Shown one piece after another: positions 8,451 through 45,627 of a DNA stretch of 45,845 bases. This DNA is from Methylomagnum ishizawai (GTDB lineage: Bacteria; Pseudomonadota; Gammaproteobacteria; Methylococcales; Methylococcaceae), in contig NZ_FXAM01000005.1 of the NCBI RefSeq assembly GCF_900155475.1, forward strand, positions 1 through 45,845, read 5' to 3'. Each line of letters opens with the position of its first letter. The first letter of the stretch is position 1. The notes beneath the pieces are model-generated. The model was not told the DNA's origin. It did not search any database and saw nothing but the letters and a program-made list of their open reading frames with translations. The translations under genes were made by a program, and so were the position numbers.

Positions 8451-8564
8451 TCCCAGGGTAAACGCCAACAGGGCAGTCCTGGCCAATACCCGAGCCGCCG
8501 GTATAGAGGTGGCCCCGATTGTTTGAACAAGATTTAAGCCGGGATAAGTGGATACCCTGCTGGG

Positions 8565-22104: not shown

Positions 22105-24530
22105 TTGATAGTCGTAAGCCCGGACCAGGGCAGCCTCGGTTTCCGTGAGGCGATCCCTGAACGCCATGGCCTTGAGTTCCGCCGCTCGGCCCAGAATATG
22201 GGAACGCAGGAACTCCGCTGCCGCCAAGCGATGGGTTTCGCCATGGGCCAGGAATTCCACCGCTCCGGGAGCCGCTTTGCGGTCTGGCTTGAGCAGGAGC
22301 AGATGCTCCACGGGCATTTCTTCCATGAACTTGTCCCCAGCTTGGCGTAAGCCGACCAGACGCTGTTCGAGGATTTCCTGGGTATGGAATGTGGGGAACC
22401 CCGGATCGGCGTCTCTGACCACCGCGATGCGGGCGACATGGAAAAGGTAGGGTTCGGTAGCGGAGACATCGACAAAGATCGCTCCGCGCCGCCCGGACGG
22501 ACGGCATTTTTCCAGGGCCAGGGCGGAGAGTTTTTCAAAAACCGGTTCCCCAGGGTGCAGGAATATCGCATCGCGCCGATCATCGGGCCGGTACACGGTG
22601 AACTTGCCACGCGCCGCTTCCGGGTAGGTTTCGAGCAGGGGCATCAGACTGTCGAGCGCGCCCCGCTTGCGTGCCCGTAGGAAGAAATGGCCACCCAGGT
22701 CGCCAACGATATCGGCACCCGCCATCGGTACGGCGTATTCCAAGAAGCGGCGCACATAACCCGGCAACAACCGGCGCAATTCCTCGGTGGCCAGGGCATC
22801 TTGCAATTCGGGAAGCGCCCGGGCCACGTCCCCGCCGCCGGTGCCATAGATTCCCTCTTCCTGGGCCGCGATGGCACGGACCTGCTCCACAGTCAGTTGG
22901 CCCGTGATTGCGAGGGCTTCCCGTTCCGCCTCGTCGTCCGAGAGTACGGCCCGTTGCAGGTAGTCGGTCAAAGAAATTCCCTCGAACACCCTGCCGATCA
23001 CATCGAACACCTTGTCGGAGCCAAGCGCCTTGCGGATGTCTTCCATCTTGTCGAGCAGTGTTTTGACGACCCGGCCTTCACGGGTTTTGCCCGCTACCAG
23101 GTTGACGATGGCGACCCGGTCCTTCTTTTGCCCGTAGCGGTGGATGCGGCCCATGCGCTGTTCCAGCCGTGCCGGGTTCCAGGGAATGTCGTAATTGACG
23201 AGTATCCAGCAAAACTGAAGGTTGATGCCTTCGGCCGCCGCGTCGGTACCGATGAAAAAGCGGCAGCCTCCCGCCGAGTTCGGGGCGCGGAAACGTTCGA
23301 CCTGGGCATCCCGTTGCTGGAAATTCAGGCCCCCGTGGATGTAGGCGACTTGGTCGGTATACCCATGCGCTTCGAAGCGCCGGATCAGGAATTCGAGCGT
23401 ATCCCTATGTTCGGTGTAGATAATGACCTTCTGGTCGGCGAATTCCGGCGATTTCAGCAGTTCCCCCATCCGTGCGAATTTGGATTCCTGGCCATCGGCA
23501 TAGACGGATTCCGCCAGTCGGGCCAATTCGTTGACCTTGTCCCGCTCGACAATCAATTCCGCGAGGCTGGTCGCTATGAAATCGCCCAGGGCTTCGGTTT
23601 CCTCGCGTTCGTGCTCCTCGATCCCGTTTTCTATGGACTCTTCATCGGCGGTTTTGCCGGGATCGCCGAGGCTGTCCTTGACCTTCCTGTCCAGTTGCCG
23701 CTGGCGGGTGCGAAGCTCGGCTTCGGGGATGCGCCCGGTTTGGATATCCTCGATCAGGCCATCGAGCTTTTCCCGTCGTTTGCGGAACGAACACAACAGG
23801 GCCCAGGTGCTGCTTGCCAGCCGCCTTTGGAAAACGGTCATGGCGAACCGCGCCGCTTGCCTGTTCAGCAACCGGGCTTGGTTGTAGTAATGCTGGATGT
23901 AAGCGGTGGTCTCGTCGTATAGGGTTTGCTCGCCTTGGGTGAGTTCGAAGCTCATCGTGTCGCAGAGGCGCGGGGGATACAGGGGTCTTCCCTGAATATC
24001 GACCATTTCTTCCTTGACCCGGCGGATGAAATAGCGCGACCGTGCTTCCTTGGGGAAAAGATCGAACGCGGTTTCGGTGCTGAATAATTCCGGTTCGAGC
24101 AAACGCCAAAGGCAGTAGTACGGATAGGCCTTGCCCATGTGGGGCGTGGCCGTCAGCAGCAAGAGGTGCTGCGCCGACCAGGGCAGTTTCCATTCCGGAG
24201 GCAGGTCGCGGATCCCCGAGAGGGCTTCCGCCAGGCGATAGCGGTCGGTCGCGCGGAAGGTCCCATCGGGATCCCGGCTCGCGGATAACTTGTGCGCTTC
24301 GTCGAAAACGACGATGTCATAGGGTTGGGTCGATGAGTCGCTTAGGCAACGGAACAAGTTGCCGCCCCGGAGGCTATCCACGCTCACCACGATCCGGTCG
24401 CTGTCCGGTCCCAGGAATGGGTTTACGTCTTTGGCCCGCGCCCCGGAGATGATTTTGAAATCGAGTTGGAATAACGATTTCAACTCCCGGTGCCAGTTTC
24501 CCACCAAGCCGGCAGGTGCCACGATCAATA

Positions 24531-25587
24531 GACATGCTCCCAAGCTAACCTATTGTTTTTAATTATAATTTAAAATTCCAGAGGCCAGCACCAATATAAA
24601 TGAAGGTATCTAATAAATGTGCCAGATGGTTTCTTGAGCGATGTACTAAACTATGCAGACATTTCATCCCGCCGATGGCATGCTCAACAGCCACGCGGGT
24701 TTTAGCAAGCTTCCGATTATGTTTCTTCTGTGTTGGTGTTAATTTCGGATCAGGATTCGCTTTGGACTTCTTTGGCTTTTTATGGGGGATTTGAATGGCC
24801 CGTGCGTGGGGATAATCATTTTTAATGCCTTGGAATCCGAGATCAACCTCGATAAGTTGCTTTTGAAACCATGGCAAGGCGGGCGGAAATTCCGTCTTAA
24901 ACAGGGCATAGTCGTGGACACTTCCCGGCACGGTGGAGCTAAGGAATAGGATTTTCTTGGCGGGGTTGGCAATCACTAGGTTATTAACGCCGTGATGTTT
25001 TTTTTTACCGCTGTAGCGTTGCTCTTGTTGGGATTTATCCTGGGGCCTGAGGGTCGCCCGCTCCGTGCCATCAATGATGATAGTAGGTTGTTTTTCAAGG
25101 AGTCTATCCAGCGCCTCAACCGTCTTGACCGAACGTTCGGGAAGTGTTTTCAGATGGGCTAGGCTCGCTTGAAGGATGGGCAGCAGTGTTTCTAAATGAT
25201 CGAAAGCATGGCCTCCACTGAAACCAAAGAGATAGCCCAGTACGTCGTAACTGGGATAGTTTTTCAAGTAATAAAGGACAAAAAACAGCCGGTGTCCAAA
25301 GCTAGATAGATAGCCTGGGAAAGCGGGGCTAGGCGCGTCGAGCGAAGGGCCACCGTACTGGTCACGATAAGTTGATTCAAAAGACAGAAGTAAATGCTTG
25401 AACTGATCTTTGGTAAGTCCGGTCAAGGCTTTGCAAACACGATCATTGCCGATGTCGTCAAGGCTGCTAAAGATCATTGTGGAAGCACCATTAAAAAGGA
25501 TTCGTGGGGAATTGCGATTGATCTTACTCTGCGGACCTTGCAGTAACAATTATGAACAGAATATTTATGAGGCCTTGGGAACATCTC
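24531..25587 (-). mobile_element. Low-GC IS5-superfamily (DDE_4) insertion in the helicase gene (TSD TA)
   Basis: 1057 bp, ends GAGATGTTCCCAAG / GACATGCTCCCAAG (12 of 14 matching), duplicated TA at 24529-24530 and 25588-25589. Removal with one TA rejoins RRI and LLIVAPAG in frame. Base composition is clearly more AT-rich than the rest of the plasmid, which points to a donor of different GC content. Confidence 0.92.
24563..25477 (-). CDS. DDE_4-type transposase
   Basis: 304 aa from ATG 25477; an upstream start (25549) would add 24 residues but is less convincing. An N-terminal HTH_Tnp_4-like region (LTKDQFKHLLLSFESTY) is followed by a DDE core: IIDGTERA, EVDLGFQGI and AVEHAIGGMK. The product is lysine- and tyrosine-rich, unlike the arginine-rich proteins around it, consistent with a low-GC origin. 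It appears intact. Confidence 0.87.
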   Translation of the reverse strand: MIFSSLDDIGNDRVCKALTGLTKDQFKHLLLSFESTYRDQYGGPSLDAPSPAFPGYLSSFGHRLFFVLYYLKNYPSYDVLGYLFGFSGGHAFDHLETLLPILQASLAHLKTLPERSVKTVEALDRLLEKQPTIIIDGTERATLRPQDKSQQEQRYSGKKKHHGVNNLVIANPAKKILFLSSTVPGSVHDYALFKTEFPPALPWFQKQLIEVDLGFQGIKNDYPHARAIQIPHKKPKKSKANPDPKLTPTQKKHNRKLAKTRVAVEHAIGGMKCLHSLVHRSRNHLAHLLDTFIYIGAGLWNFKL

Positions 25588-27295: not shown

Positions 27296-27507
27296 GTGCC
27301 GCCTATATCGGGTGATATAAAGCTTTATGAGAATCCTCTCCGTCCGGGCTTCGGCATGGATAATACAAAGAAGATTAAAACAAAGAATAGAAGAATAGAG
27401 GCCGAAAAATGGATGTTTTTGTTTTTAAAAACAAGTGTTTGTAATTTAGAGGTGGCCCCGATTGTTTGAACAAGATTTAAGCCGGGATAAGTGGATACCC
27501 TGCTGGG

Positions 27508-28338
27508 TTAAGCGACCTTGGGAAGGGCCGGTCGGGGTTTAAAGTAGACCTCATCCGGGGTTTGGCTGTCCAGGCTCGAATGGGGCCGCCGGGTATTGTA
27601 GAAATCCAGGTACCGACCGATGGATTCGCGGGCTTCCCGGACCGAGTCGTAGGCTTTGAGGTAAACCTCCTCGTACTTCACCGTCCGCCAGAGGCGTTCG
27701 ACGAAGACGTTGTCGCGCCAGGAACCCTTGCCGTCCATGCTGATGCGGATGTTCCGGCCCGTCAGCACCTCGATGAACTCCCCGCTGGTGAACTGGGAAC
27801 CTTGGTCGGTGTGGACGATATCCGGCGGGCCGTAGCGGCGCAGCGCCTCCTCCAGGGCCTCGACGCAGAAGCCCGCGTCCATGGCGACCGATACCCGATG
27901 GGCCAGGGCCTTGCGGCTGGCCCAGTCGAGGACCACGCACAGGTAGACGAAGCCCCGTGCCATCGGGATGTAGGTGATGTCCAAGGCCCAGACCGCGTTG
28001 GGCCGGTCGATGGTCAGGCCGCGTAGCAGATAGGGATAGACCTTGTGGGCCGGATGCCTCTGGGTGGTTTTGGGACGCCGGTACAGGGCTTCGATGCCCA
28101 TGCGGGCCATCAGCGTGGCCACATGGCGGCGTCCGACCCGGAAGCCTTCCCGGTTCAGGGTGTCGCGCAGCAGCCGGGCGCCCATGAACGGGTGTTCCAG
28201 GTGCAACGCGTCGATCCGCCGCATCAGCGCGAGGTCCGACTCCGGCACCGGCTTGGGCGCGTAGTAGGCGCCGCCCCGGCTGATGCCCAGCAATTCCGCC
28301 TGTCGGGTCAGGGAAACATCGTGGTCCCGGTCGATCAT
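27508..28338 (-). CDS. IS3-family transposase OrfB, copy 3
   Basis: 276 aa, same DDE core as copies 1 and 2. The last residues are PKVA instead of PKAA. The -1 frameshift site is at 28380-28386. Confidence 0.92.
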   Translation of the reverse strand: MIDRDHDVSLTRQAELLGISRGGAYYAPKPVPESDLALMRRIDALHLEHPFMGARLLRDTLNREGFRVGRRHVATLMARMGIEALYRRPKTTQRHPAHKVYPYLLRGLTIDRPNAVWALDITYIPMARGFVYLCVVLDWASRKALAHRVSVAMDAGFCVEALEEALRRYGPPDIVHTDQGSQFTSGEFIEVLTGRNIRISMDGKGSWRDNVFVERLWRTVKYEEVYLKAYDSVREARESIGRYLDFYNTRRPHSSLDSQTPDEVYFKPRPALPKVA

Positions 28339-28640
28339 CGCTTTGCGCTCAGCTTTCCGGCCTTGCTGAGCGCGCCGGATAAAAAATCGATCTCCAGCGC
28401 CTGTTGGCCGATCTTGGCGTGCAGGGCTTTGAGGTCCACGGCGGGTTCGCTTTTGTCGTTCTCGCCACCGAACACGCTGGCGGCCCGTTCCAGAAGTTGG
28501 CTCCGCCACTCACCGATCTGGGTCGGATGGATATCGAATTCCTGCGCCAACTCGGCCAGGGTCTTTTCGCCCCGCAGGGCCGCCAGGACCACTTTGGCCT
28601 TGAAACTCGCTGAATGGTTGCGGCGTGGTCGTTTGCTCAT
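28335..28640 (-). CDS. IS3-family transposase OrfA, copy 3
   Basis: 101-aa HTH protein, identical to OrfA of the other two copies. Confidence 0.9.
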   Translation of the reverse strand: MSKRPRRNHSASFKAKVVLAALRGEKTLAELAQEFDIHPTQIGEWRSQLLERAASVFGGENDKSEPAVDLKALHAKIGQQALEIDFLSGALSKAGKLSAKR

Positions 28641-30097: not shown

Positions 30098-30907
30098 ATG
30101 GCACCCAGGAAATCAACCAAGACCATCGCGGTCACCAACCATAAGGGAGGCTGCGGCAAGACCACGACGGTCGTCAACCTCGCCGCGGAGTTCGCACGGC
30201 TCGGCTTGTCGGTGCTGGTCGTGGACCTCGACCCGCAAGCCAACGCAAGCCTCCATATCGGCAAGAAGCATCCGAGCGAGATACCCGTCACCTGCGCCGA
30301 ATTGCTGCTCGCGGAAGCGGAAAAACTGCCCCTCGCCATCCACGAGGAAACGAATATCGAGGGGGTTTCCCTCATCTACGGATCGCTCGCCCTGGGCAAG
30401 ACGGAAGACGATTTGCGGGACCAGACGCCGCGTCCGTCCGAGGAACTGCGAAGCAAGCTAACGCCGCTCGAAGGCTTGTACGATGTCGTCCTGTTGGATT
30501 GCCCGCCCAGCCTCAAGCTACTCACCAGCAACGCCCTCGCCGCCGCCACCCACCTCATCATCCCCATCGAATCGGGTTCCCAATATGGGATGTACGGCGT
30601 CACCGACCTCATGCGCCATGTCGCCAAGATTCGGAGGATCAATCCGGGTTTGGACCTCCTGGGCGCTTTGCTCATCAAGCACGACGAACGGCAAACGGTA
30701 TGCAAACTGATCGAAAACACGGCGCGGGAGCAAATCGGCAAGTTGCTCCCGGTGAGGATTTCCACCAGCACGAAGATCAATCAAGCGGCCATCGCGCAAA
30801 TGAGCCTCCATGCCCTGGACCGGAGCGCGAAAGTGGCGCGGGAATTCCGGCAACTCGCGGCAACCCTGGCCAAGAACCTTGACCTGACCCAGAACGGCGT
30901 GGAGTAG
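30098..30907 (+). CDS. parA: Partition ATPase ParA
   Basis: 269 aa. Deviant Walker A KGGCGKTT (16-23) with the signature lysine, Walker A' VVDLDPQANAS (D43/D45) and Walker B VVLLDCPPSL. There is no N-terminal HTH extension, so it resembles Soj/type Ib ParA rather than P1-type ParA. No strong ribosome-binding site precedes the ATG at 30098. parB follows after 4 nt. It forms nucleoid-bound gradients that separate plasmid copies together with ParB. Confidence 0.93.
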   Translation: MAPRKSTKTIAVTNHKGGCGKTTTVVNLAAEFARLGLSVLVVDLDPQANASLHIGKKHPSEIPVTCAELLLAEAEKLPLAIHEETNIEGVSLIYGSLALGKTEDDLRDQTPRPSEELRSKLTPLEGLYDVVLLDCPPSLKLLTSNALAAATHLIIPIESGSQYGMYGVTDLMRHVAKIRRINPGLDLLGALLIKHDERQTVCKLIENTAREQIGKLLPVRISTSTKINQAAIAQMSLHALDRSAKVAREFRQLAATLAKNLDLTQNGVE

Positions 30908-30911
30908 CGCG

Positions 30912-31820
30912 ATGGCAAAGAACATCAAGGACATGCTGGCCCAGAAACTGGCCGAAAATAGCAAACGCCACTCCGATGCCAGCCAGGAGCCTTTCTTCGA
31001 GGCCGGGCGGCAGCACGTCAAACTCCCGGTGGATGGGATCGACGCCAACCCCTACCAGCCACGGCGGGCCTTCCCGCAAGATGAACTCGAAGCGCTGGCG
31101 TCTTCCATTTCCGAGGCCGGATTGCTGCAACCCGTCAGCGTCAGGGCCGTAGGCGACCGCTACCAACTCATCGCCGGTGAAAGGCGCTGGCGTGCCCATA
31201 AGCTACTCGGGCGCGCCACCATAGAAGCGCTAATCATCCCGGTGGAAGAGGCCGACATGGCGATCCTGGCCCTGGCCGAGAACATCGACCGGGAGAACCT
31301 GAGCGACTACGAAATCGGCAAGGCGTTGCGGCAAGTCGAGAACCTTTTCCCGACCAAGAAGAAGCTTGCCGAAGCCTTGGGCATGAACCGGGAGGACATG
31401 TACCGCTACTTCGCCTTCGAGGCTTTGCCGGAAAGCGTACTCTCGCGGCTGGACTCGAACCCACGCCTTCTATCCCGCTCCGCCGCCACGGACATCAAGC
31501 GCGTTCTACAGCAACCGGAAGCACCGGAGCTAGCCTTGACCCTCCTGGCCGAGGCCTGGGAAAAGCTGGAAACCCGTGAGATCGAGCAAACCAAGATCGC
31601 GGTGTACATCGCCAAAGGCCTGCGGACCCAAACCCACCAGCAGGGAACAAGCCACGACCGGACGGAAACCCGGCAATTCACCTCCAAAGGCAAGGTCGTG
31701 GGTTCCTATTCGGCGGATAAAAAAATCCTGGCCTTCAAACTCGACGCCAACACGTTGAGCGAAACCCAGCGGGAAAGGCTGATTCAATTCATCGAGGGCT
31801 TGATGGAGGAAGGCGTGTAG
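30912..31820 (+). CDS. parB: Partition protein ParB
   Basis: 302 aa. An N-terminal region precedes the ParB/Srx CTPase domain with NPYQPRR and GERRWRA (CTP-binding arginine patch), then AENIDRENLSDYEIGKALRQ and a central HTH (KKKLAEALGMNREDMYRYF). The C-terminal part (about 245-302) should be the dimerisation domain. The stop codon TAG (31818-31820) lies inside the second parS-like palindrome. An 'ISRSAATDI'-type helix suits DNA binding. Confidence 0.93.
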   Translation: MAKNIKDMLAQKLAENSKRHSDASQEPFFEAGRQHVKLPVDGIDANPYQPRRAFPQDELEALASSISEAGLLQPVSVRAVGDRYQLIAGERRWRAHKLLGRATIEALIIPVEEADMAILALAENIDRENLSDYEIGKALRQVENLFPTKKKLAEALGMNREDMYRYFAFEALPESVLSRLDSNPRLLSRSAATDIKRVLQQPEAPELALTLLAEAWEKLETREIEQTKIAVYIAKGLRTQTHQQGTSHDRTETRQFTSKGKVVGSYSADKKILAFKLDANTLSETQRERLIQFIEGLMEEGV

Positions 31821-32883: not shown

Positions 32884-34794
32884 ATGGGCCTAGTCAAAAA
32901 ACCCATCACCGGAACAACCGCCACCGAAGGCCGCTCATCGGCGGCTTCGGCCAGGGATGCGGAAGCCCAGCGCAAACGGGCGCGCACCCTAGCCAAACAG
33001 CAGCAGGCCGCCGAGCGCATCGCCGCCGCCACGGCGCAATTATCATCGGGTATCAACGAAGCAGCTTCCGCCGCCGAAGAATTGAAGCGCGCCTCCGACC
33101 AGATCGCGACCGGGGCGGAAGAGGCGTCCGGCGCGGCGCAAGAATCCCTCGCGGCCTTCAAGCAGGTCGAAATCGCCATCCAGCGCCAAATGCAGAACGC
33201 GGATATCAGCCAGGCCAAAATAGAGGCCACCCAAACCCTGGTGGCCAAGACCAGCGGCGATATCGCCACCTTGGTGACCAACGTCGGCATCGCCGCGCAG
33301 CGCCAGGCGTCCTCGGTGGAGATGGTGGGCGAACTGGAAAAACAGGCGGCCAATATCGGCGACATCATCAAGGCCGTGGTCCGCATCGCCGACCAAACCA
33401 ATCTCCTGGCCTTGAACGCCGCCATCGAGGCCGCCCGCGCCGGCAAGCACGGCAAGGGCTTCGCCGTGGTGGCCGACGAAGTGCGGACGCTGGCCGAAAC
33501 CTCGGAGAAAAGCGCCAAGCAAATCCAGGATTTGGTGGGGCAGATCCAGCAGGAAGTGAAAACCATCGCCGAAGGCATCACCACCGCCGCCAAGACCGTC
33601 GAAGGCGAAGTGGAAAACGGCAAGAACATCACCGTGCAATTGGAGCGGATCCGCGCCGACGCCATCGAAATCGTCGGCGGGGTGCGCGAAATCGCCACCG
33701 GTGCCCAGCAGTCCGGCGTCGCCGCCCAGCAGGCGCTCAAGGGGTCGGAGAACATCGCTTCGGCCGCCGAGGAGCAATCCGCCGCCGCCGAGGAATCGGC
33801 GAAAACCGTGGAAGAGCAAGCCCAGGCCCTGGCCCAATGCGAACAGACCGCCAAGACCCTGTCGGATCTGACGGAAGACCTCAAGAATTCCACGGATATC
33901 GCCAAGAGCGCCGAGGAAGTGGCTTCTGCGGCCGAGGAACTCTCCTCCGCCGTTTCGGAAATCAACCGTTCGGGCACCCAGATCATGGCGGCCCTGGAAC
34001 AAATCCGCAAAGGCGCCGAAATCCAGTCCTCGGCCAGCGAGGAATCCGCCGCCGCCATCACCCAGATCGAGAAGGGCCTGGAGATCGCCTTGGCCCGAGC
34101 CACCACCAGTGGCGAAAAGGTCGGGGCCATCAAAAGCTTGTTGGCGGCGAACAAGTCCTCGGTGGACGCCTTGATCGAGGGGGTTTCCTCGTCGGCGGTG
34201 GCGTCCAAGACCAGTATCAAGCAGATCAAGGATCTGGAACTGGTTTCGCGGCGCATCGACAAGATCGTCGACGCGATCACCACGGTGTCCATCCAGACCA
34301 ACATGCTGGCGGTCAATGGCTCCATCGAAGCCGCGCGGGCCGGCGAGTTCGGCAAGGGTTTCGTGGTGGTGGCCACCGACATCCGCAACCTGGCCCACGA
34401 TTCCGCCGAGAACGCCGATCGCATCAAGGATTTAGTCAAGGCGGTACAGGACCAGATCGGCGTGGTGGGACGCGACCTGGAAGAAATCCTCGCCGCCGCC
34501 ATGGGCGAAGTGGAAAAGGCCAAGAACTCGACGGCCAATCTGGTCCTGATCGAAACCGACATCGCCGCGGTGGAAACCGGCGCCAACGAAATCCTGGCCG
34601 CCGCCAACGAGATCGCCGCCGCCATCGCCCAGGTGAAAAAGGGGGTGGAGCAAATCTCCGCCGCCGCCCAGGAAGCGGACAAGGCCGTCACCGAAGCCGC
34701 CGCCGCCGCCAAGCAGCAATCGCAAGGCGCCGAGGAGTTGGCCGCCGCCATCGAGGAAATCGCCTCCCTCGCGGACGAACTGCAAAGCGCTTGA
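32884..34794 (+). CDS. Soluble chemoreceptor with two MCP signalling tips (DosM-like)
   Basis: 636 aa, no transmembrane segment and no recognisable sensor domain; almost entirely Ala/Glu-rich coiled coil. It has two complete receptor hairpin tips: tip 1 at about 168-204 ([17 protein letters not shown] at 171, then [12 protein letters not shown]) and tip 2 at about 468-504 ([17 protein letters not shown] at 471, then [12 protein letters not shown]). They are exactly 300 residues apart. Tip 2 has lost the conserved DEVR glutamate (TDIR). Double-tip receptors are known (DosM of Vibrio cholerae, which bridges two CheA/CheW layers in a cytoplasmic array). First gene of the operon; the triple-CheW protein follows after 15 nt. 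Confidence 0.93.
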
Positions 34795-34809: not shown

Positions 34810-36381
34810 ATGACCACAGAACTTCTGGAAGAACGGGGGAATTCCCCGCCGCCGGTGGACGATGCGGTCGGGGCGGAAGCCTCCGACACCCGCCAGTTCG
34901 TGACCTTCATCGCGGGCGGCGAGGTCTTCGCCGTCGATATGGCCCCCGTGCAGGAAATCATCCGCGTGCCGGGCGTGGTGCGTGTGCCCTTGGCACCGCA
35001 TACCCTGGACGGCTTGGCGAACCTGCGCGGCAAGGTGCTGCCCATCATTTCCCTGCGCCGGATCTTCGGCTTCTCCGAAGTCGAATACGACGAGGCCACC
35101 CGCGCCGTGGTGATCGACATCGGCCAGCCCTTGGGCTTCGTGGTCGACCGGGTCGCCAGCGTGGTCGGCGTGGACGCGGGCAAGATCGAGGATGTGGAGA
35201 GCATCCAAGGCACCGTGAAGACCGAGTTGCTTTCCGGCCTCATCAAGGATGTCGGCGGGCACGCCATGATCATGGTGCTGGATTTCGCCAAGCTGATCGC
35301 CCAGGAATTCGCCGATATCGCCGCGCTCGCCAAACGACGGGCCGGCCTGGGCGCGGGTCCGGGCCTGTCCGGCGAACCGCGCGACGAGGAGGAGGAAACC
35401 AGCGACGAACTGCAATTGGTGAGCTTCGAGGTCGCGGGCCAGGAATACGCGATGGACATCAAGGATGTGCAGGAGATCGTGCAAGTGCCGGAGCTGATCG
35501 TCCATGTGCCGCGCTCCGAATCGCATGTGCTGGGCGTGATGACCTTGCGCAACCGCCTGCTGCCCCTGGTCAGCCTGCGCCGCATGTTCGACCTGCCCAT
35601 CCGGGATGCCGACGAACGTAGTCGCATCGTCGTGGTGGCCTTGGGCAGCGCCTCGGTGGGCGTGGTGACGGACACCGTGAACGAAGTCCTGCGCGTGCCC
35701 AGGAACGAGGTGGACGCCATCCCGCCCTTGCTGGCCCGCGAGGGGAATTTGGCCGACATCACCGATATCTGTCGATTACAGGGCGGCAAGCGCCTGGTGT
35801 CGATCATTTCCGCGGGCAATTTATTCGGCCACGCGGCCATCAAGGAGGCTTTGAACACCGTGGATACCTTGCAAGACGACGATGAACAGCGGGTCGCGAC
35901 CCTGGATGACGACGCGGTCGACGACGACGAGCAGGTCGTGGTGTTCCACTTGGGCAAGGAAGAGTTCGGGGTCCCCATCGAGAGCGTGCAGGAAATCGTG
36001 CGCGTCCCCGAGGAATTGACCCATGTGCCCAAGGCGCCGCCCTTCGTCGAGGGCGTCATCAACCTGCGGGGCGCGGTGCTGCCGGTGATCGACCTGCGTC
36101 GGCGGCTCGGCCTACCGGTCCTGGAACGCACCGACCGCCAGCGCGTCATGGTGTTCCTGATCCATGGGGCGCGCACCGGCTTCATCGTCGACGTGGTGAC
36201 GGAGGTGCTCAAGATCCACAAGAGCGCCATCGAACCCGCGCCGCGGCTATCCGGCGAGCAGGCCAACCTGCTGGCCCGCATGGCCAATCTGGAAAAGCAA
36301 AAGCGCATGGTGCAATTGATCGAACCGGCCCATCTGGTGGAAGGACGCGAACTCGCCGACCTGGCCGGAATGGCGGCCTGA
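34810..36381 (+). CDS. Triple CheW-domain coupling protein
   Basis: 523 aa made of three CheW domains at about 28-170, 200-345 and 375-512, joined by acidic linkers (DEEEETSDE, DDDAVDDDEQ). Each has the CheW core (for example VQEIIRVPGVVRVP, VQEIVQVPELIVHVP, VQEIVRVPEELTHVP). Domains 1 and 3 keep the NLRG motif; domain 2 has TLRN, so its receptor or kinase contact may differ. CheW couples receptor tips to CheA; three in one chain could link neighbouring array units or the two tips of the upstream receptor. A GGAGG site precedes the ATG; cheB follows after 17 nt. Confidence 0.93.
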   Translation: MTTELLEERGNSPPPVDDAVGAEASDTRQFVTFIAGGEVFAVDMAPVQEIIRVPGVVRVPLAPHTLDGLANLRGKVLPIISLRRIFGFSEVEYDEATRAVVIDIGQPLGFVVDRVASVVGVDAGKIEDVESIQGTVKTELLSGLIKDVGGHAMIMVLDFAKLIAQEFADIAALAKRRAGLGAGPGLSGEPRDEEEETSDELQLVSFEVAGQEYAMDIKDVQEIVQVPELIVHVPRSESHVLGVMTLRNRLLPLVSLRRMFDLPIRDADERSRIVVVALGSASVGVVTDTVNEVLRVPRNEVDAIPPLLAREGNLADITDICRLQGGKRLVSIISAGNLFGHAAIKEALNTVDTLQDDDEQRVATLDDDAVDDDEQVVVFHLGKEEFGVPIESVQEIVRVPEELTHVPKAPPFVEGVINLRGAVLPVIDLRRRLGLPVLERTDRQRVMVFLIHGARTGFIVDVVTEVLKIHKSAIEPAPRLSGEQANLLARMANLEKQKRMVQLIEPAHLVEGRELADLAGMAA

Positions 36382-36398: not shown

Positions 36399-37463
36399 GT
36401 GATCAAGCTGCTCATTGTCGACGACTCGGCGCTGATGCGCCGCCAGTTGACCCAATTATTCCTGGATGAAAACGATTTCGAGATCCGCCAGGCGCGCAAC
36501 GGGATCGAGGCCGTGGCGGAAAACCGCGAATTCGAACCGGATGTGGTGACGCTGGACATCAACATGCCCGAGATGGACGGCATCACCGCGCTTTCGCTGA
36601 TCATGGCCGAACGCCCGGTGCCGGTGGTGATGGTGTCCTCGCTCACCGAGCAAGGCGCGCTGGCGACCTTCGAGGCGCTCAACCTGGGCGCGGTGGACTA
36701 TGTCGCCAAACCGGGCGGGACGATTTCGCTCAGCATCGACACCATCAAGGACGACCTGATCGGCAAAGTGCGTACCGCCGCCCGCGCCAAGATCAAGGGC
36801 AAGGGTGCCAAGGGCTTGGCGCAACGGCTGCGGGAGGAGCGGGAAAAAGTCGCCGCCCGCCCGGTGGCCGTGCGGCGCGGCGTGGCGGGCGAAGGCCTGG
36901 TGGTGATCGGCGTCTCCACCGGCGGGCCGCGCACGCTGGAGGACATCCTGCCGCAACTGCCGGCGGATTTCCCCTGGCCGGTGCTGGTGGCCCAGCACAT
37001 GCCACCCTCGTTCACGCGGCCTTTCGCCGACCGCATGAACGGCTTGTGCGTCCTCAACGTGGTCGAAGCCGCCCAGCCCATGGCCCTGGAACCCGGCACC
37101 ATCTATATCGGCAAGGGCGGCGCGGACATGGTGCTGGGTCGGCGCAACGGGAAACTGACGGTGTTGGCCAAGCCGGAAAACAAGGAATTCCTCTGGCACC
37201 CGTCGGTGGAACTCCTGGGCCGGTCGGTCCTGGAACATTGCGATCCGGCGCGGGTGGTGGCGGTCATGCTGACCGGCATGGGCTACGACGGGGCCGACGC
37301 CTTCACCGAGATCAAGAAGCGCGGCGGGCGCACCATCGCCGAATCGGAAGAAACCGCCGTCGTGTTCGGCATGCCGGCCGAACTCATCAAGCGCGGTGGC
37401 GCATCGGTGGTGATTCCCAATGAAAAGGTCGCCGCCCAACTGAATACCTGGGCGTCGCGATAA
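36399..37463 (+). CDS. cheB: Chemoreceptor glutamate methylesterase CheB
   Basis: 354 aa. Receiver domain 1-125 (D8/D9, phospho-acceptor D53 in TLDINMP, K104 in YVAKP), a charged linker 126-165, then the esterase domain with the catalytic triad S173 (GVSTGGP), H200 (QHMP) and D297 (MGYDG). GTG start at 36399 with GGTGGGGAGG upstream. All catalytic residues are present, so it should remove methyl groups from receptors in response to CheA phosphorylation. Confidence 0.95.
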   Translation: MIKLLIVDDSALMRRQLTQLFLDENDFEIRQARNGIEAVAENREFEPDVVTLDINMPEMDGITALSLIMAERPVPVVMVSSLTEQGALATFEALNLGAVDYVAKPGGTISLSIDTIKDDLIGKVRTAARAKIKGKGAKGLAQRLREEREKVAARPVAVRRGVAGEGLVVIGVSTGGPRTLEDILPQLPADFPWPVLVAQHMPPSFTRPFADRMNGLCVLNVVEAAQPMALEPGTIYIGKGGADMVLGRRNGKLTVLAKPENKEFLWHPSVELLGRSVLEHCDPARVVAVMLTGMGYDGADAFTEIKKRGGRTIAESEETAVVFGMPAELIKRGGASVVIPNEKVAAQLNTWASR

Positions 37464-37483: not shown

Positions 37484-38107
37484 ATGGCTTTAATCAGGCA
37501 AGTGGCCCACGAGCGCATCGACGAGGATCAGCGCAAGCAAGGACGGGACTGCGCCAGTCTCGCGGCGGCTCTGACGGATGCCAATCCCACCGCCCGCCGC
37601 TGGGCGGCGCGGGATTTGGCGGCCTGCCCGGACGCCGCCGCCGCCCTGGTGGCCTGCTTGCGGCGGGAACAAGACGCCTCGGTCCGGGAGGTGATCCTCA
37701 CCACCTTGACCGGCTTCGGCAATGCAACGGCGGTGGCGGGCCTGCTCGATTGCCTCAGGAGCGAGGACGCGGCGCTACGCAACGAAGCCATCGACGCCCT
37801 CAAGCAGTTGCCCGAACAACTCGGCCCCATCATGCGGCGGCTGTTGGCCGACCCCGACCCGGACGTGCGCATTTTGACCGTGAACATCCTGGAATCCCTG
37901 CGCCATCCCGAGGTGGAAGCCTGGCTGATCGAAGTCATCGACCAAGACCCCCACCTGAACGTCTGCGGCACGGCGGTGGATTTGCTCGGCGAGGCGGGAT
38001 CGGCGGCGGCGCGGGAGCCGCTATTGCGCCTCAAGGCGCGCTTCCCCGACGAACCCTACATCCAATTCGCCGCCGATTTGGCCCTGAAACGCCTCGCGGA
38101 GGAATAA
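37484..38107 (+). CDS. HEAT-repeat protein of the chemosensory operon
   Basis: 207 aa of repeated paired helices: about five HEAT units (for example ARRWAARDLAACPDAAAALVACL, then VREVILTTLTGFGNATAVAGLL, LRNEAIDALKQLPEQLGPIM, VRILTVNILESLRHPEVEAWLIEV). HEAT repeats are protein-binding scaffolds; the partner is unknown but its place between cheB and cheR implies a role in the array or output. An AAAGGGGGG ribosome-binding site lies just before the ATG at 37484; cheR follows after 7 nt. Confidence 0.85.
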   Translation: MALIRQVAHERIDEDQRKQGRDCASLAAALTDANPTARRWAARDLAACPDAAAALVACLRREQDASVREVILTTLTGFGNATAVAGLLDCLRSEDAALRNEAIDALKQLPEQLGPIMRRLLADPDPDVRILTVNILESLRHPEVEAWLIEVIDQDPHLNVCGTAVDLLGEAGSAAAREPLLRLKARFPDEPYIQFAADLALKRLAEE

Positions 38108-38114
38108 CCCGATC

Positions 38115-38957
38115 ATGGGCACAATCGCCATCAGTGACGGGGATTTCCAGAAATTCCGGGAATTCTTCTACCGGAAAACCGGCATCCACTTCGAATCCTC
38201 GAAGCGTTACTTCGTGGACAAGCGGTTGCTGGAACGGATCGAGGACACCGGCAGCGCCAGTTTCCGCGAATATTTCGTCATGCTGCGCTTCCAGTCCTCG
38301 GGCGAGGAATTGCAAGCGCTCACCAACCTGATGACGGTCAACGAAACCTATTTCTTCCGCGAGGAATACCAGTTCCAATGCCTGGCGCAGTCCATCCTGC
38401 CGGAAATCACCGCCAGCCAGCGCCCCGGCAAACCCATCCGCATCTGGGTGGTCCCTTCGTCCTCCGGCGAGGAACCCTATTCCATCGCCATTTATCTGCT
38501 CGAATATTGGGCGGGCATCAATGATTGGGATGTCGAGATCATCTCCTCCGATATCGATACCCGGATCCTCGGCCTGGCCCGCGCCGGGCTTTATTCCCCC
38601 CGTTCGGTGCTGCAACTGCCGGAGCCGCTGCTCAAAAAATATTTCACCCCTACGGGCGATCACTACCAGATTTCCGACGATCTGCGGCAGGCGGTCGAAT
38701 TCACCCGGGTGAATCTCAACGAACCGGGGGATACCCGGCCCTACCGCGATTTCGATGTGGTCTTCTGCCGCAACCTCTTGATCTATTTCGACGAACTATC
38801 GCGCAAGGCCGCCGCCGAAACCCTTTACGACGCGCTTAACCCGGGCGGTTTCCTATGCCTCGGCCACTCGGAATCCATGAGCCGCGCTTCCGGGCTGTTC
38901 AAGGTGCGCAAATTCCCCGAGGCCGTCGTTTACCAAAGGCCTTCGGAGGCGAGATGA
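38115..38957 (+). CDS. cheR: Chemoreceptor methyltransferase CheR (intact copy)
   Basis: 280 aa. N-terminal all-helical CheR_N (1-75), then the SAM-dependent domain: NETYFFREEYQF, VPSSSGEEPYSIA (motif I; usually A-[AS]-S-[TS]-GEEPYS), SSDIDTRILGLARAGLYS, DVVFCRNLLIYF and LNPGGFLCLGHSES. No TPR or pentapeptide-tether extension. It methylates glutamates on receptor helices, opposing CheB. It overlaps the next gene by 4 nt (ATGA). The left-end copy at 274-1120 has only contig-end errors. Confidence 0.95.
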   Translation: MGTIAISDGDFQKFREFFYRKTGIHFESSKRYFVDKRLLERIEDTGSASFREYFVMLRFQSSGEELQALTNLMTVNETYFFREEYQFQCLAQSILPEITASQRPGKPIRIWVVPSSSGEEPYSIAIYLLEYWAGINDWDVEIISSDIDTRILGLARAGLYSPRSVLQLPEPLLKKYFTPTGDHYQISDDLRQAVEFTRVNLNEPGDTRPYRDFDVVFCRNLLIYFDELSRKAAAETLYDALNPGGFLCLGHSESMSRASGLFKVRKFPEAVVYQRPSEAR

Positions 38958-39325
38958 AACGCATCCTGATTGTCGACGACGCCGCCACGGTACGCATGTA
39001 CCACCGCACCCTACTCGAAGCCGGGGGCTACATGGTGGAGGAAGCGGTCAACGGCGTCGAAGCGCTGGAAAAATCCCTCAGTGAACCCTTCGACCTCTAT
39101 CTGGTGGATATCAACATGCCCAAGCTGGATGGCTACGGTTTCCTGCGCGAATTGCGCGGCCAGGACCTGCCCCAGACACCGGCCATCATGATTTCCACCG
39201 AAGCGGCCGGGCACGACCGGAAACGGGCGCTGGCCGCCGGTGCCAACCACTATCTCATCAAGCCCGTGAAGCCGGAACAATTCCTCGTGCCCGTGCGCCT
39301 GCTGCTGGGGGAGGAAAGCCCATGA
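38954..39325 (+). CDS. CheY-type response regulator, first of a tandem pair (intact copy)
   Basis: 123 aa, a single receiver domain: D8/D9, phospho-acceptor D52 (LYLVDINMP), T82 and K103 (YLIKP). The start is the ATG overlapping the cheR stop; a longer frame upstream is not used. It is very similar to the receiver at 39322-39813, and the two share LLLGEE(S/N)P at their ends, showing that they arose by tandem duplication. Confidence 0.92.
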   Translation: MKRILIVDDAATVRMYHRTLLEAGGYMVEEAVNGVEALEKSLSEPFDLYLVDINMPKLDGYGFLRELRGQDLPQTPAIMISTEAAGHDRKRALAAGANHYLIKPVKPEQFLVPVRLLLGEESP

Positions 39326-39813
39326 ACCCCTTGCTCGGACAATTCCTGACCGGGGTCCGTGGCTTCCTGCAAGGGATAGGCGGGAAACTGACACCACCGC
39401 CCCCCCAGGTCTTGGTCCCGGCCGAGACCGCGCCCAGCGCGATGAAACGCGTATTGATCGTCGACGATGCCGCCACAGTGCGCCTATACCACCGCGATAT
39501 ACTCGAAGCCGGGGGCTACGCCGTGGAAGAAGCCGTCAACGGCGTCGAGGCCCTGGAGAAATCCCTGCGGACGCCGTTCGACCTCTATCTGGTGGATGTC
39601 AACCCGCCCCGGCAGGATGGTTGCGGCTTCCTGCGGGCACTGCGCGGCCAGGACCTACCCCAGGCACCGGCCATCATGGTTTCCACCGGGGCGGCCGCCC
39701 ATGACCGGAAGCTGGCCCAAGCCATCGGCGCCAATCACTATCTCGTCAAACCGGTGCAGCCGGAGCAACTCCTGATACCCGCACGCCTGCTGTTAGGAGA
39801 GGAAAACCCATGA
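39322..39813 (+). CDS. CheY-type response regulator fused to a cheA N-terminal relic (intact copy)
   Basis: 163 aa. Residues 41-163 are a receiver with D48/D49, D92 and K143, but the usual NMP after the acceptor is NPP. Residues 1-23 (MNPLLGQFLTGVRGFLQGIG) match the first helix of the neighbouring CheA (MTPLLEQFLSEAREFLQGIG), followed by a Pro-rich linker. The DNA over ~70 bp is also about 80% alike. So the duplicated unit was receiver gene plus 5' end of cheA. The ATG at 39322 overlaps the previous stop and has GGGGGAGG; the internal ATG at 39442 has no ribosome-binding site. Confidence 0.9.
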   Translation: MNPLLGQFLTGVRGFLQGIGGKLTPPPPQVLVPAETAPSAMKRVLIVDDAATVRLYHRDILEAGGYAVEEAVNGVEALEKSLRTPFDLYLVDVNPPRQDGCGFLRALRGQDLPQAPAIMVSTGAAAHDRKLAQAIGANHYLVKPVQPEQLLIPARLLLGEENP

Positions 39814-42269
39814 CCCCCTTGCTCGAGCAATTCCTTTCCGAAGCCCGTGAATTCCTGCAAGGCATCGGCGAAAAACTGATGAGGCTGGAGGACGACCCCG
39901 CCGACGCCGACCTGATGAACGAGCTTTTCCGTTTGGTGCATACCCTCAAGGGCAACAGCGGGCTGTTCGAACTCCCCGAAATGACCCGCGTTCTCCATGC
40001 GGGCGAAGACCTGATGGATGCCGTGCGCCAAGGCCGCGTCGCCTATTCGCGGACGCTGGCCGACCGTTTGCTGGACGCCATGGACTTTGTCGGCATATTG
40101 TGCGACGAGATCGAAGCCGGGAAAAACACCGGCCCGTCCCACGCCAGCGATTCGGCGCGCTTGGCGGAATCCCTGCATAAACTGATCGTAGACCCCCAAG
40201 CCGCCGGTAGCGCTCGCGATCCCGCCATCCCGGCCGCTACGGACGACTCGCCGGGACTTCCGGCGGCGGTCGTAACCACCACCGGCGCCAGCCTACCCCT
40301 CGCGGAAATACCGGAAGCCGCGCGCCTAGAAGCCTACCGTCGCGCGATGGATGGGGACGCCTTGCATTGGCTGGTCTATGACCCGGCGGAAGAATGTTTC
40401 TATCAAGGCGACGATCCCTTTTTCCGCGCCCGCCAAACGCCCGGACTGCTATGGGGCGAGGTCGCCGCCCGCGAGCCGTGGCCCGCCTTGGCCGAACTGG
40501 ACGCTTACCGTTGCGTGCTGGAATTCCGCATATTGGCCGCCGCCCCCCTGGCCGCATTGGAAGAACACTATCGCTACGTGCCGGACCAAATCCAGATCCG
40601 CCCTTTAAGCGCGGAATGCTTGGGCGTGGAGGACGGCAAGGTGGCCGAAGACGCCGTGGGTTCCCGCCAAACCGGGCTATCCCCCGGCATAACGGCCCAC
40701 GGGCTTCCACCGCAAATGGCCCAAGTGCTGACGGACTTGATCGCGACCCAGCGCGAGATACTCGCCCTGCCCATCGAGGCGGCATGGCACCTGGGGCGGA
40801 TCAAGGCCACCGCCGCCGCGCTGTCCGGTTGCCTCCGGGCCATCGGTGCCATGGATGAGCTTCCAGCCTTGGAAGCGGCGACCGCCAAGGCCTTGGGTCA
40901 ATCCACGGGGATGCCGTTGCTGGTCTGGCTGGATGGCAGATTCCCCCCGCCGACCGGGGCCGAAGCGGCCGCGGAGACGCTTCCCACGCCCCCCACCGAG
41001 GCCGCGCCGGAGCCGGTTCCCACCGTCCGGGCACCCGCGCCGGAAGCCGAGGCCGAAATCAAATTCGGCCGCCGCGCCGAGGACAACCCCGCGACGATGA
41101 AGAGCCTCCGGGTGGACCAGGTGAAGATCGACCGCCTGATGAACCTGATCGGCGAGATGGTGGTGGCCAAGAACGCCCTGCCCTATCTGGCGGGCCGCGC
41201 CGAGTCGGTGTTCAGATCGCGGGAACTGGCGCGGGAGATCAAGGCCCAGCACGCGGTGATCAACCGCATCGCCGAGGAAATGCAGGACGCCATCATGCAG
41301 GTGCGCATGATGCCCGTTTCGTTCGTGTTCCAGCGCTTTCCGCGCCTGGTGCGGGATATTTCGCGCAAGCTCGGCAAGGAAGTGAACCTGGTGCTGGAGG
41401 GCGAATCCACCGAGGCCGACAAGAACATCGTCGAAGCCCTGGGCGACCCATTGGTGCACATCGTCAGGAACAGCCTGGACCATGGATTCGAGATGCCCGA
41501 GGTGCGCCGGGCCATCGGCAAGCCGCCGGTCGGCACCCTGATCCTCCGGGCCAGCCAGGAATCCGACCGGGTCGTGATCGAGGTCGTGGACGACGGTCAA
41601 GGCATCGACCCGGCGGTGGTCAAGCGCAAGGCCTACGAGCAGGGCGTCATCGACGAAGCCACCCTGGAACGCATCGGCGACCAGGAGGCCGTCAACTTGA
41701 TCTTCGCTGCCGGTTTCTCCACGGCGGCGGCGGTGTCCGACCTCTCGGGCCGGGGGGTGGGCATGGACGCGGTGCGGACCGCCGTGCAAAAGGTGAACGG
41801 CTCCCTCCATTTGGACAGCGAGAAAGGCAAGGGCACCCGCATCCGCATCGCCTTGCCGCTCTCCATGGCGGTGACCAACGTCATGATCGTCGAATCCGAT
41901 AGCCAGGTCTTCGGCATCTCCATGGACAGCGTGGTGGAAACGGTGCGGGTGCCGCGCCGGGATATCCGCATGATCAAATCCAGCCAGGCCGCCGTATTGC
42001 GGGGACGGATCGTGCCCATAAAATCCCTCAACGCCCTGCTCGGCCTGGCCACGCCTCCCAAGCTCAGCGGCGATGACGAACTGGCCGTGCTGGTGGTGCG
42101 CTTGGGCGGCGAGCCCATCGGGCTGGTAGTGGACGATTTCCGCGGGACCGTCGACATCATCCTAAAACCCATGGCGGGCGTCTTGGCGGGGCTCTCCGCC
42201 TACACGGGCTCGGCCCTCATGGGCGACGGGACGGTGCTGATGGTGCTCGACGTCAAGGAGATTCTGTGA
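39810..42269 (+). CDS. cheA: Chemotaxis histidine kinase CheA
   Basis: 819 aa. HPt domain 1-105 with phospho-accepting H44 (RLVHTLKGNSG). A variable linker is followed by an unfamiliar globular segment about 168-270 (HWLVYDPAEECFYQGDDPFF...) at the place of the usual P2 CheY-binding domain, and a helical piece 300-365. After a Pro/Ala/Glu linker come the P3 dimerisation helices (430-505), the ATPase domain with N box H550..N554..D557H558, G1 DDGQGID (594-600), F box IFAAGFST (631-638) and G2 GRGVGMD (647-653), and a CheW-like P5 (690-819). All kinase residues are present. It overlaps its neighbours on both sides. Identical to the left copy. Confidence 0.95.
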   Translation: MTPLLEQFLSEAREFLQGIGEKLMRLEDDPADADLMNELFRLVHTLKGNSGLFELPEMTRVLHAGEDLMDAVRQGRVAYSRTLADRLLDAMDFVGILCDEIEAGKNTGPSHASDSARLAESLHKLIVDPQAAGSARDPAIPAATDDSPGLPAAVVTTTGASLPLAEIPEAARLEAYRRAMDGDALHWLVYDPAEECFYQGDDPFFRARQTPGLLWGEVAAREPWPALAELDAYRCVLEFRILAAAPLAALEEHYRYVPDQIQIRPLSAECLGVEDGKVAEDAVGSRQTGLSPGITAHGLPPQMAQVLTDLIATQREILALPIEAAWHLGRIKATAAALSGCLRAIGAMDELPALEAATAKALGQSTGMPLLVWLDGRFPPPTGAEAAAETLPTPPTEAAPEPVPTVRAPAPEAEAEIKFGRRAEDNPATMKSLRVDQVKIDRLMNLIGEMVVAKNALPYLAGRAESVFRSRELAREIKAQHAVINRIAEEMQDAIMQVRMMPVSFVFQRFPRLVRDISRKLGKEVNLVLEGESTEADKNIVEALGDPLVHIVRNSLDHGFEMPEVRRAIGKPPVGTLILRASQESDRVVIEVVDDGQGIDPAVVKRKAYEQGVIDEATLERIGDQEAVNLIFAAGFSTAAAVSDLSGRGVGMDAVRTAVQKVNGSLHLDSEKGKGTRIRIALPLSMAVTNVMIVESDSQVFGISMDSVVETVRVPRRDIRMIKSSQAAVLRGRIVPIKSLNALLGLATPPKLSGDDELAVLVVRLGGEPIGLVVDDFRGTVDIILKPMAGVLAGLSAYTGSALMGDGTVLMVLDVKEIL

Positions 42270-42505
42270 TGGCCATCGAATTCACGCAAGACCTGGCCAC
42301 GTTCCACGGGGTGATCGGCGTCGAGGACGCGGAAACCCTATTGGAATGGTTGCAAAACAGGCCCAGGGCGAAGGTGGACCTCTCGGCGTGTACCCACCTG
42401 CACCCGGCCAATCTGCAAGTGCTGATGGCGGCGAAAACCGCCGTGGGCGCCTGGCCGACCGACCCAGGCCTCGCCGCTTGGCTGAAGCCCGCATTGGAAA
42501 TTTGA
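42269..42505 (+). CDS. STAS-like small protein between cheA and cheY
   Basis: 78 aa. VDLSACTHLHPANLQVLMAAK fits the strand-loop-helix of a STAS domain (as in anti-sigma factor antagonists), but the loop serine or threonine that is phosphorylated in SpoIIAA-type proteins is replaced (HPAN instead of DSAG). It may therefore be a docking protein rather than a phospho-switch. ATG overlaps the cheA stop by one base. STAS proteins occur in some alternative chemosensory clusters; partner unknown. Confidence 0.75.
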   Translation: MAIEFTQDLATFHGVIGVEDAETLLEWLQNRPRAKVDLSACTHLHPANLQVLMAAKTAVGAWPTDPGLAAWLKPALEI

Positions 42506-42520
42506 ATCAGGAGCATCGCT

Positions 42521-42895
42521 ATGGCACTCACCATCCTTATCGTCGACGATTCCGCCACCATGGTCATGAGCGTCAGGACCACCTTGGAAATGAACGGTTT
42601 CAAGGTGGAAACCGCCAACGACGGGGTACAGGCGCTAGCCAAGCTCAAGGCCGGGATGAAGCCCGACCTGATGATTACCGACATCAACATGCCCCATATG
42701 GGCGGGCTCGAACTCATCCAAAACGTCCGGGCGTTGCCGGGTTTCCGCTTCATGCCGATCCTGACGCTCACCACCGAAAGCCAAGCCGCCAAGCGCGACG
42801 AGGCCAAGAAACTGGGCGCCACCGGCTGGCTGGTGAAGCCCGTGTCCGGGACCGACCTGGTCAAGGTCATCAAGCAAGTCCTGCCGGGGGCTTGA
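42521..42895 (+). CDS. cheY: CheY-type single-domain response regulator
   Basis: 124 aa. Receiver with D9/D10, D53 in [13 protein letters not shown]-containing LTLTTES and WLVKPVSG lysine. More distant from the tandem pair upstream of cheA and closer to classical CheY (family context [19 protein letters not shown]). Likely the output messenger or a phosphate sink of this operon. It is followed after 10 nt by the membrane receptor gene. Confidence 0.93.
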   Translation: MALTILIVDDSATMVMSVRTTLEMNGFKVETANDGVQALAKLKAGMKPDLMITDINMPHMGGLELIQNVRALPGFRFMPILTLTTESQAAKRDEAKKLGATGWLVKPVSGTDLVKVIKQVLPGA

Positions 42896-42905
42896 GGGAG
42901 GCACG

Positions 42906-44261
42906 ATGAAATTAGCGGATAAGCCTTCCGCCGGACCCAAACGGTTCCAGAATTGCGAAAACCGCCCGAAAGTTCCGGCGGCATCGCCAGATTTTCCCCA
43001 GTCCGGCTTTGGTAGTCGGTTGATGGGCGCGATTCTGGTGGCTGCAACGGTCAACGGCTTGATTGCCTGGTTCGCCTCGCCGTGGCTGCATGACAACCTG
43101 ATTCATTCGTGGGGCCTGTCCGAAGGCAGGGAGATCGCTATCGGCACGCTGCTTTGCATGTTCACTTTCATCCCTTTATCGGCGATGAGCGCATGGCCGT
43201 TCGTTCGAGAGGAACTCGCCATGCTAAAGGGAAAAAATCATGTACGACAAAGGGTTGATCATCGATAAAAACGCTAGACAGCAATCCATTCAAAACGAAT
43301 TAGTCCATGTCACCGCCTATATCAATATCCTGCGTGAGCAACTGGATGGCGCGATCAAGCAAACCGAAAGCGGCGTCATGGCGGTGATCGAGCGGATCAG
43401 CCAGGTGCATGGGCTCTCCCACGCCCAGATGGACCGCATCGGCAATTCCCTGCAAAACGGCATGGCCCTGGTGGATGTCATTGGGCAGCAGACCCACTAT
43501 AACCACCAAGTGATCGGCGTCCTGGTCGGGCATATGGAAGGGCAGATCGCGGAATTGCGGAATAACCTGGATCGCCTTCATCGCCTCGCCGACGAAGTGG
43601 GCGCGTTATCCCCGCTGGTAGGCGTTATTTCCCAAATCGCCAGCCAGATCAACCTGCTGGCGCTCAATGCCGCTATCGAGGCCGCCCGGGCCGGCGACGC
43701 GGGCAGGGGGTTTGCCGTGGTCGCGGACGAGGTCAGGAAGCTTTCGGCCCAAACCGCCAATGCGGTGACGGACATTTCGCGCATGATCAGCGCCGCGACC
43801 CATGGCGCGGACACGGAATACACCGTCGCCAGGGAAGCTTTGGAAAGCCATCAATCCGCGTCCGAGCTAAGCCACGTCATCGATGAGCTGAGCGCCATGG
43901 AGCACCGCTTCGCCGAGGCAGCAAAATGATGATGGCGGTCGATCCATGGCGTCGACAAGGGCAATCAGGAGGTGGTCGAGAGACTTTCCGAAGCCTGGGC
44001 CATATCCAATTCCAGGATGTAGTGCGCCAGCGTATCGAGCATGTGCAATCCGCCCTGCACGAACTGGACGAGCATTTCCAGGGCTTGGTTGGGCATCCTG
44101 GGCGATCCCGACTGGGACGGACAGGTGACTCCCAGTTTGCGGACGCGCTTGGACGGCTATCTCGACCGCTATGTCATGACCAGAGCCAGCGCGATGCCCA
44201 TTCCGCCGTGACGGGGGCCAAACGGGAAGAGGACGATGGCCCGAGGATCGAGCTTTTCTAG
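42906..44261 (+). pseudogene. Membrane MCP, frameshifted duplicate of 5067-6419
   Basis: Same gene as 5067-6419, interrupted by an extra A near 43236 (splitting the two transmembrane helices from the signalling part), a missing G near 43917, and further indels near 43940, 43994, 44096 and 44182. All lie in the error-rich right end of the contig; treat the gene as intact on the plasmid. Confidence 0.8.
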
Positions 44262-44464
44262 GGCGTGTCCTCAATATAGCGGTGGAAGCCAGGTAAGGCG
44301 CATTATCTTTATCAAAAGTTAAGATAAAGCCTTGTTAAAACGATTACCACCCTATCCAAACGGTGAAGCCAAGGCCCCGCACCACCCATAGACACCACCA
44401 CTTTCGATTAACCGGGGACACCAAAGCGACGGGACAGCGCCAAGGCTCCATAGCCGGAATCTTC

Positions 44465-45436: not shown

Positions 45437-45627
45437 TCAGATGATCGAAACCCATCCGGTCCGCCGTCAATGGTGAATATTCACCTTGACACCCCCTATT
45501 TTCCGGTTACGCCTTCCCCGACCCCCCAATGCTGGAACCCGGGTCGTCCCGGCCTTCCAGCCGCCGAGTTGGAACCCTGGCGACTTCCGGCATTCAAAGC
45601 GGATACCCCCGCGGAAGATTGCCGATC

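Follow-up and report, generated by a model that had tools for sequence, protein, structure and literature searches.

The closest described relative of the receptor considered here is DosM of Vibrio cholerae (VC1403), which carries two signalling domains in one chain and belongs to the F9 (cluster I) cytoplasmic array (PMC7534058). In the published description, DosM forms a rod whose two ends are both signalling domains, is placed between CheA/CheW layers 35 nm apart and sits in every other trimer of dimers; the array needs DosM (PMC7534058). V. cholerae provides the imaged example of F9, a system to which that account assigns no known function (PMC7534058). In the survey of F9 systems, the combination of DosM and the triple CheW protein CheW3 is given as the signature, 98% of the DosM proteins are sensor-free, full sets number 64 in 2781 species and the sets move between lineages; partial sets that lack a CheA of their own also occur and may make use of a different CheA (PMC9321776). 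The cytoplasmic array of R. sphaeroides likewise has two baseplates that sandwich opposed receptors, as proposed for DosM, but its separate receptor sheets meet mid-way, and a double-tipped receptor is not described in the portion of that report used here (PMC3964821).

The window analysed, 45,845 bases of Methylomagnum ishizawai DNA, is a whole contig. The stretch 1-8010 recurs at 37838-45845; the alignment of the two has 28 gap bases and 0 mismatches. Since the window is the whole contig and its overlapping ends are the same sequence, it is most simply one circular molecule, a plasmid of about 37.8 kb, and the mismatch-free overlap refutes a true duplication of the che operon at both window ends. 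The second cheR-cheA-MCP copy is an assembly overlap with indel errors; the two end copies differ by indels alone and the frameshifts there are therefore not biological. In the overlap copy, CheR is split into ORFs 293-1003 and 684-1487, and the gene of the methyl-accepting chemotaxis protein (MCP) at 5067-6419 is the same as the one that is divided between ORFs 42906-43268 and 43240-43929. A ParA/ParB pair at 30098-31820, upstream of the che operon, probably serves the plasmid itself; no replication protein was recognised among the plasmid ORFs that were given to Pfam. The plasmid also carries a 2-isopropylmalate synthase (LeuA-like) gene at 14402-16111, three copies of an rve-type (IS3-like) transposase at 8505-9566, 12953-14014 and 27448-28509, which are identical over the 300-base stretches compared, and on the minus strand, at 18498-25549, genes for Fic, a DUF1156 protein and a 1310-aa helicase ORF beside a transposase, which may be a defence-type locus. 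The host is probably a methanotroph, as its genome has three matches to the PmoA/AmoA family. The receptor heads a run of che genes on one strand of the plasmid that includes a further MCP gene; the genes are:

32884-34794, plus strand: DosM-like double-signalling-domain receptor, ATG start, 636 aa, with tip 1 at about aa 171-201, a joint at aa 336-338 and tip 2 at about aa 471-501
34810-36381, plus strand: CheW3, three concatenated CheW domains, 523 aa (Pfam CheW in 3 stretches, E 4.5e-93)
36399-37463, plus strand: CheB, receiver (REC) and methylesterase domains, 354 aa (Pfam)
37484-38107, plus strand: HEAT-repeat protein, 207 aa (Pfam; 8 of 12 related loci encode a similar protein)
38115-38957, plus strand: CheR methyltransferase, 280 aa (Pfam)
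38954-39325, plus strand: single-domain response regulator a, starting at the methionine of MKRILIVDD (the longest ORF begins at 38855)
39322-39813, plus strand: single-domain response regulator b, a tandem duplicate of a; a piece at its N-terminus resembles the first 23 CheA residues
39810-42269, plus strand: CheA kinase with Hpt, dimerisation, ATPase and CheW-like domains, 819 aa (Pfam)
42266-42505, plus strand: STAS-like small protein, 79 aa (Pfam STAS_2, E 6.8e-4, a weak match below the cut-off; similar proteins in 8 of 12 loci)
42521-42895, plus strand: CheY-like response regulator, 124 aa (Pfam)
5067-6419, plus strand: MCP with an N-terminal hydrophobic region (by eye), 450 aa

From the letters of the DNA it had been proposed that 32884-34794 encodes a soluble receptor that has two MCP tips 300 residues apart and no sensor domain, and that matches the double-signalling-domain type known from DosM. 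This description held throughout. The two 17-residue tip motifs begin at residues 171 and 471, so that the distance from tip to tip is exactly 300 residues. MCPsignal, found in two stretches (E 3.2e-65), is the one Pfam family of the receptor; neither a sensor nor any further family was detected at E 0.001, and no stretch resembles a transmembrane segment, the highest 19-residue mean on the Kyte-Doolittle scale being 1.05. The protein contains a single proline, residue 7, and in all four arms the hydrophobic residues recur with the heptad period of 3.5, the strongest among the seven periods tried. The receptor scored 1055.7 bits with a DosM profile built from six sequences, whereas none of the other matches listed for its genome went beyond 96. 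Tandem MCP domains, an adjacent CheW3, a full set of CheA, CheB, CheR and CheY, and the usual, though not universal, lack of a sensor and of a membrane span are the features of an F9 system, and there is hardly any doubt that the receptor belongs to the known DosM family. DosM as a kind of receptor is thus already known and the plasmid receptor is a further case of it. As in the plasmid operon, the VC1403 cluster includes a triple CheW, VC1402, and a CheA, VC1397, according to the published description (PMC7534058). The likeness to VC1403 is drawn from that description. Unlike its counterpart in V. cholerae, the operon is carried by an approximately 37.8-kb plasmid of a probable methanotroph, with two tandem response regulators before CheA. 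In this region (38954-39813) a regulator gene and the start of cheA are duplicated in tandem, seemingly yielding a CheY-like protein with a CheA-like N-terminus.

The AlphaFold2 model of the receptor, calculated from 8 sequences (mean pLDDT 90.4, pTM 0.65), consists of helices at 18-335 and 339-635 that are broken at the joint, residues 336-338; confidence drops at the joint and at both tips. In a Foldseek search with the full model, the cytoplasmic domain of a Thermotoga maritima MCP (2ch7_A) aligned over 298 columns with an rmsd of 2.5 at rank 7 of a list in which several other entries align as coils by chance and have a large rmsd. When half 2 was predicted alone (mean pLDDT 91.6, pTM 0.52), the model aligned with 2ch7_B over 299 columns at TM 0.91 and rmsd 2.3, a match at rank 5, behind 2ch7_A and integrative models of Bacillus-type receptors (TM 0.87-0.90). 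For the first half, residues 46-335 align with 2ch7 on the basis of sequence. Since both halves match 2ch7, one by sequence and one by predicted structure, each half is modelled as a full MCP hairpin, two in one chain. 2ch7 has the hairpin fold and the approximate length of each receptor half, but it comprises one hairpin, as against two in series in DosM. The outcome named beforehand as contradicting the DosM assignment, a single hairpin with an internal repeat, was not seen, as half 2 folds by itself into a full hairpin in the prediction.

Apart from the receptor's own plasmid, 17 of 72,556 records in a plasmid collection, which may leave out records nearest the host genome, match the receptor at E 1e-50, and the smallest of these has 285,280 bp. 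Including the host, DosM was found in at least 3 of 38 genomes of the family (E 1e-60; one match is cut by a contig end), at least 9 of 369 of the class (E 1e-40) and at least 9 of 398 of the phylum (E 1e-60), with up to 3 candidates scored per genome in the class and phylum scans. The DosMs of two genomes of the same class cluster with an Alteromonas DosM at 80% identity, a weak hint at Gammaproteobacteria as the class of the host, given that F9 sets move between lineages. One single-contig genome of the same family, G019, has two DosM genes, L095 and L097, about 1.8 Mb apart. At least 3 of 227 Vibrio genomes contain DosM (E 1e-60, up to 5 candidates scored per genome). These three, which are not taken to be V. 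cholerae, have DosMs that are 46% identical to the receptor and that also show the spacing of 300. Matches in five further Vibrio genomes, out of 148 searched at E 1e-40 with up to 8 candidates scored in each, were rejected as DosM because they are ordinary receptors that match one half.

Twelve related loci from named records (L009-L020) were compared with the plasmid operon. CheW and CheB occur in 12/12, CheR and CheA in 11/12 (the L016 locus ends early), the HEAT-repeat protein and the small protein each in 8/12 and a ParA-like gene in 4/12. In L009, L012 and L019 the ParA-family gene directly follows that of the small protein and possibly positions the array. In a tree of the CheW3 domains of 12 homologues, the three domain positions group apart, with the exception of L016_d2 (support 0.973, 0.433 and 0.592). 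The order DosM-CheW3-CheB-HEAT-CheR-REC-CheA-small protein is common to the M. ishizawai plasmid and to F9 operons on large plasmids of Methylosinus trichosporium OB3b, Eleftheria terrae, Sphaerotilus sulfidivorans, Methylobacterium currus and Azospirillum argentinense, with DosMs at 48-70% identity. These five replicons have at least 285 kb, in contrast to about 37.8 kb in M. ishizawai, and in two of them (L009 and L012) ParA lies right after the small protein whereas the M. ishizawai ParA/ParB pair is upstream of the operon.

The spacing of the tips is a property of the family. Counting the plasmid receptor, the tip glutamates E182 and E482 lie 300 residues apart in 32 of 33 full-length DosMs, whose mean pairwise identity is 45%, and in 24 of 25 clusters formed at 80% identity. 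Excluded from these counts were rows that represent the same genes as others (L112 and L113, equal to L020; L094, equal to L008, the plasmid receptor; L106-L111, equal to L014-L019), the ordinary receptors L117-L121 (at most 140.5 bits) and L096, which is cut by a contig end. Segment lengths of 122, 144, 27 and 130 residues are found in 33/33 DosMs and a fifth, of 129, in 32/33. The arms that keep these lengths have a mean pairwise identity of 33-38%, and the joint region, 322-356, one of 0.586. The sole exception to the spacing is L020, from a Denitrovibrio MAG, with 402 residues. Its DosM contains a CZB zinc-binding domain (residues 446-510, E 4.3e-14). With the joint at 355 and tip 2 at 602, the insert falls within the first arm of hairpin 2, some 90 residues beyond the joint and roughly halfway to the tip. 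In the L020 locus the CheW matches are spread over two ORFs. Judged from this comparison of homologues, the tip-to-tip spacing of DosM acts as a ruler. The CZB insert suggests that sensors might be spliced into the proposed rod.

The two tips are not alike. The original prediction had pointed to a divergence of tip 2, TDIR (residues 498-501) for DEVR (residues 198-201), which proved to be real and present throughout the family in the 33 homologues. When the 50 positions 160-209 were compared with their partners 460-509 in 33 DosMs, 11 of the 50 had no residue shared between the tips. Seven of these lie in the core: D170 versus I/V/L470, L/I174 versus M474, L177 versus V477, A179 versus G479, D/E198 versus T/A/S/N/G/R498, E/T199 versus D499 and V200 versus I500; the four outside the core are 160, 205, 206 and 208. 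M474, V477, G479, E482, D499 and I500 of tip 2 are invariant in 33/33. In a tree that combines 64 DosM tips with 90 others, and from which L104 and L096 were left out, all tips 2 fall into one clade with a support of 1.0 and nothing else within it, and tips 1 into one clade with a support of 0.928, in which the sole extra member is tip 1 of L020, entered twice; it is counted among the 90 others, so that 89 are from other receptors. The outgroup was mostly gathered by tip-1-like patterns and its want of tip-2 sequences is therefore biased. The support for a joint clade of tip 1 and tip 2 is 0.005, and internal duplication and a fusion of two receptors are thus both compatible with the tree. With a half-2 profile, a fairer test than the outgroup, no stand-alone relative of the tip-2 half was found among at most 5 scored candidates per genome in 398 genomes: the range for the 9 DosM second halves was 186.6-510.5 bits, and no other scored receptor exceeded 106.5. 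An ordinary LALNA-type tip was read in the 21 other loci inspected. Since each tip has been conserved separately for long, the alignments imply that the tips are probably not interchangeable.

It had been suggested that the tips bind different partners, for which the plasmid CheA/CheW3 and a chromosomal CheA/CheW come into question, so that the receptor would link two chemosensory systems. The non-overlapping residues at 11/50 positions in 33 homologues and the separate clades fit this proposal, the many other receptors in the genome make other chemosensory systems likely, and partial F9 sets without CheA may, as described in the F9 survey, rely on a foreign CheA (PMC9321776). Yet the same tip differences are seen where the F9 operon has its own CheA. 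We take E385, R388 and F396 in E. coli Tsr numbering to be the contacts for trimer formation and for the kinase, and these are kept in both tips: E in 33/33 of tips 1 and 33/33 of tips 2, R in 33/33 and 32/33, F in 33/33 and 33/33. A connection between two systems is accordingly improbable. A little less probable is that tip 2 is a degenerate, non-signalling tip, kept merely to hold hairpin 2 in place. Its mean pairwise identity of 0.742 is below that of tip 1 (0.876), but it is about twice as conserved as the arms (0.33-0.38) and has invariant positions of its own.

By analogy to V. cholerae, dimers of the receptor would form a rod that carries tip 1 and tip 2 at opposite ends. Two CheA/CheW3 baseplates would face each other, with each tip joining trimers of receptor dimers in one of them, and the rod would keep the two layers at a fixed distance. 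A fixed length would be needed because the rod must fit both baseplates, and with two baseplates setting the length, indels would be absent. As the receptor is sensor-free, signals would enter via other cytoplasmic receptors in the shared trimers. The dimensions can be estimated. The rise per residue is about 0.148 nm, and 300 residues thus amount to about 44 nm from tip to tip. For calibration we assumed arms of about 126 residues each for a fragment of E. coli Tar. The sandwich formed by the Tar fragment is reported to measure 31 nm (PMC3964821). On these figures, its baseplates lie about 6 nm nearer to each other than the added lengths of the arms would give. For DosM a baseplate gap of about 37-38 nm would therefore be expected, a rough value since it uses assumed constants, but near the 35 nm published for V. 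cholerae.

The break of the helix at 336-338 would permit a turn, and the two hairpins might fold back side by side, with both tips on the same baseplate, to give a pseudo-dimer in place of a rod. This arrangement is slightly more doubtful than the two discussed above. The published tomography of V. cholerae DosM depicts a rod with one tip per end (PMC7534058), the length arithmetic agrees with the end-to-end form, and the constant spacing is readily explained by the fit between two baseplates. Finally, the unpolished overlapping ends of the contig with their 28 gap bases could raise the suspicion that the double domain is an assembly artefact or a frameshift fusion of two adjacent receptor genes, but the receptor ORF lies outside the duplicated ends and the 300-residue architecture shared by 32/33 full-length homologues, the plasmid receptor counted, refutes a fusion of neighbouring genes, so that hardly any likelihood is left for this explanation.

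We therefore consider it very likely that the receptor is of the DosM type, belongs to an F9-class cytoplasmic system and acts as a rod that braces two facing baseplates; counted against it are the low pTM values of the models, 0.65 for the full receptor and 0.52 for half 2. By analogy to the imaged array, it is probably the cross-brace of a two-baseplate cytoplasmic array. Because each rod has two chemically distinct, separately conserved tips, the array could be polar: all rods would point in one direction, the tip-1 and tip-2 faces would be unlike and differ in CheA content, in the use of the CheW3 domains or in partner receptors, and the conserved mid-rod joint would couple both faces. We regard such polarity as clearly less likely than not, an estimate that is independent of the CZB insert.

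In the literature searched, the exact spacing of 300, the tip differences and an F9 system on a small plasmid were not encountered; they may be in print. With the M. ishizawai plasmid, a compact plasmid-borne F9 operon is now known in a probable methanotroph. The geometry of DosM provides a testable ruler, in that changes of the arms by whole heptads should alter or abolish the baseplate gap, and the CZB insert of L020 marks a site in the rod where a signal could enter. The conserved asymmetry of the tips makes the equivalence of the two faces of the sandwich directly testable.
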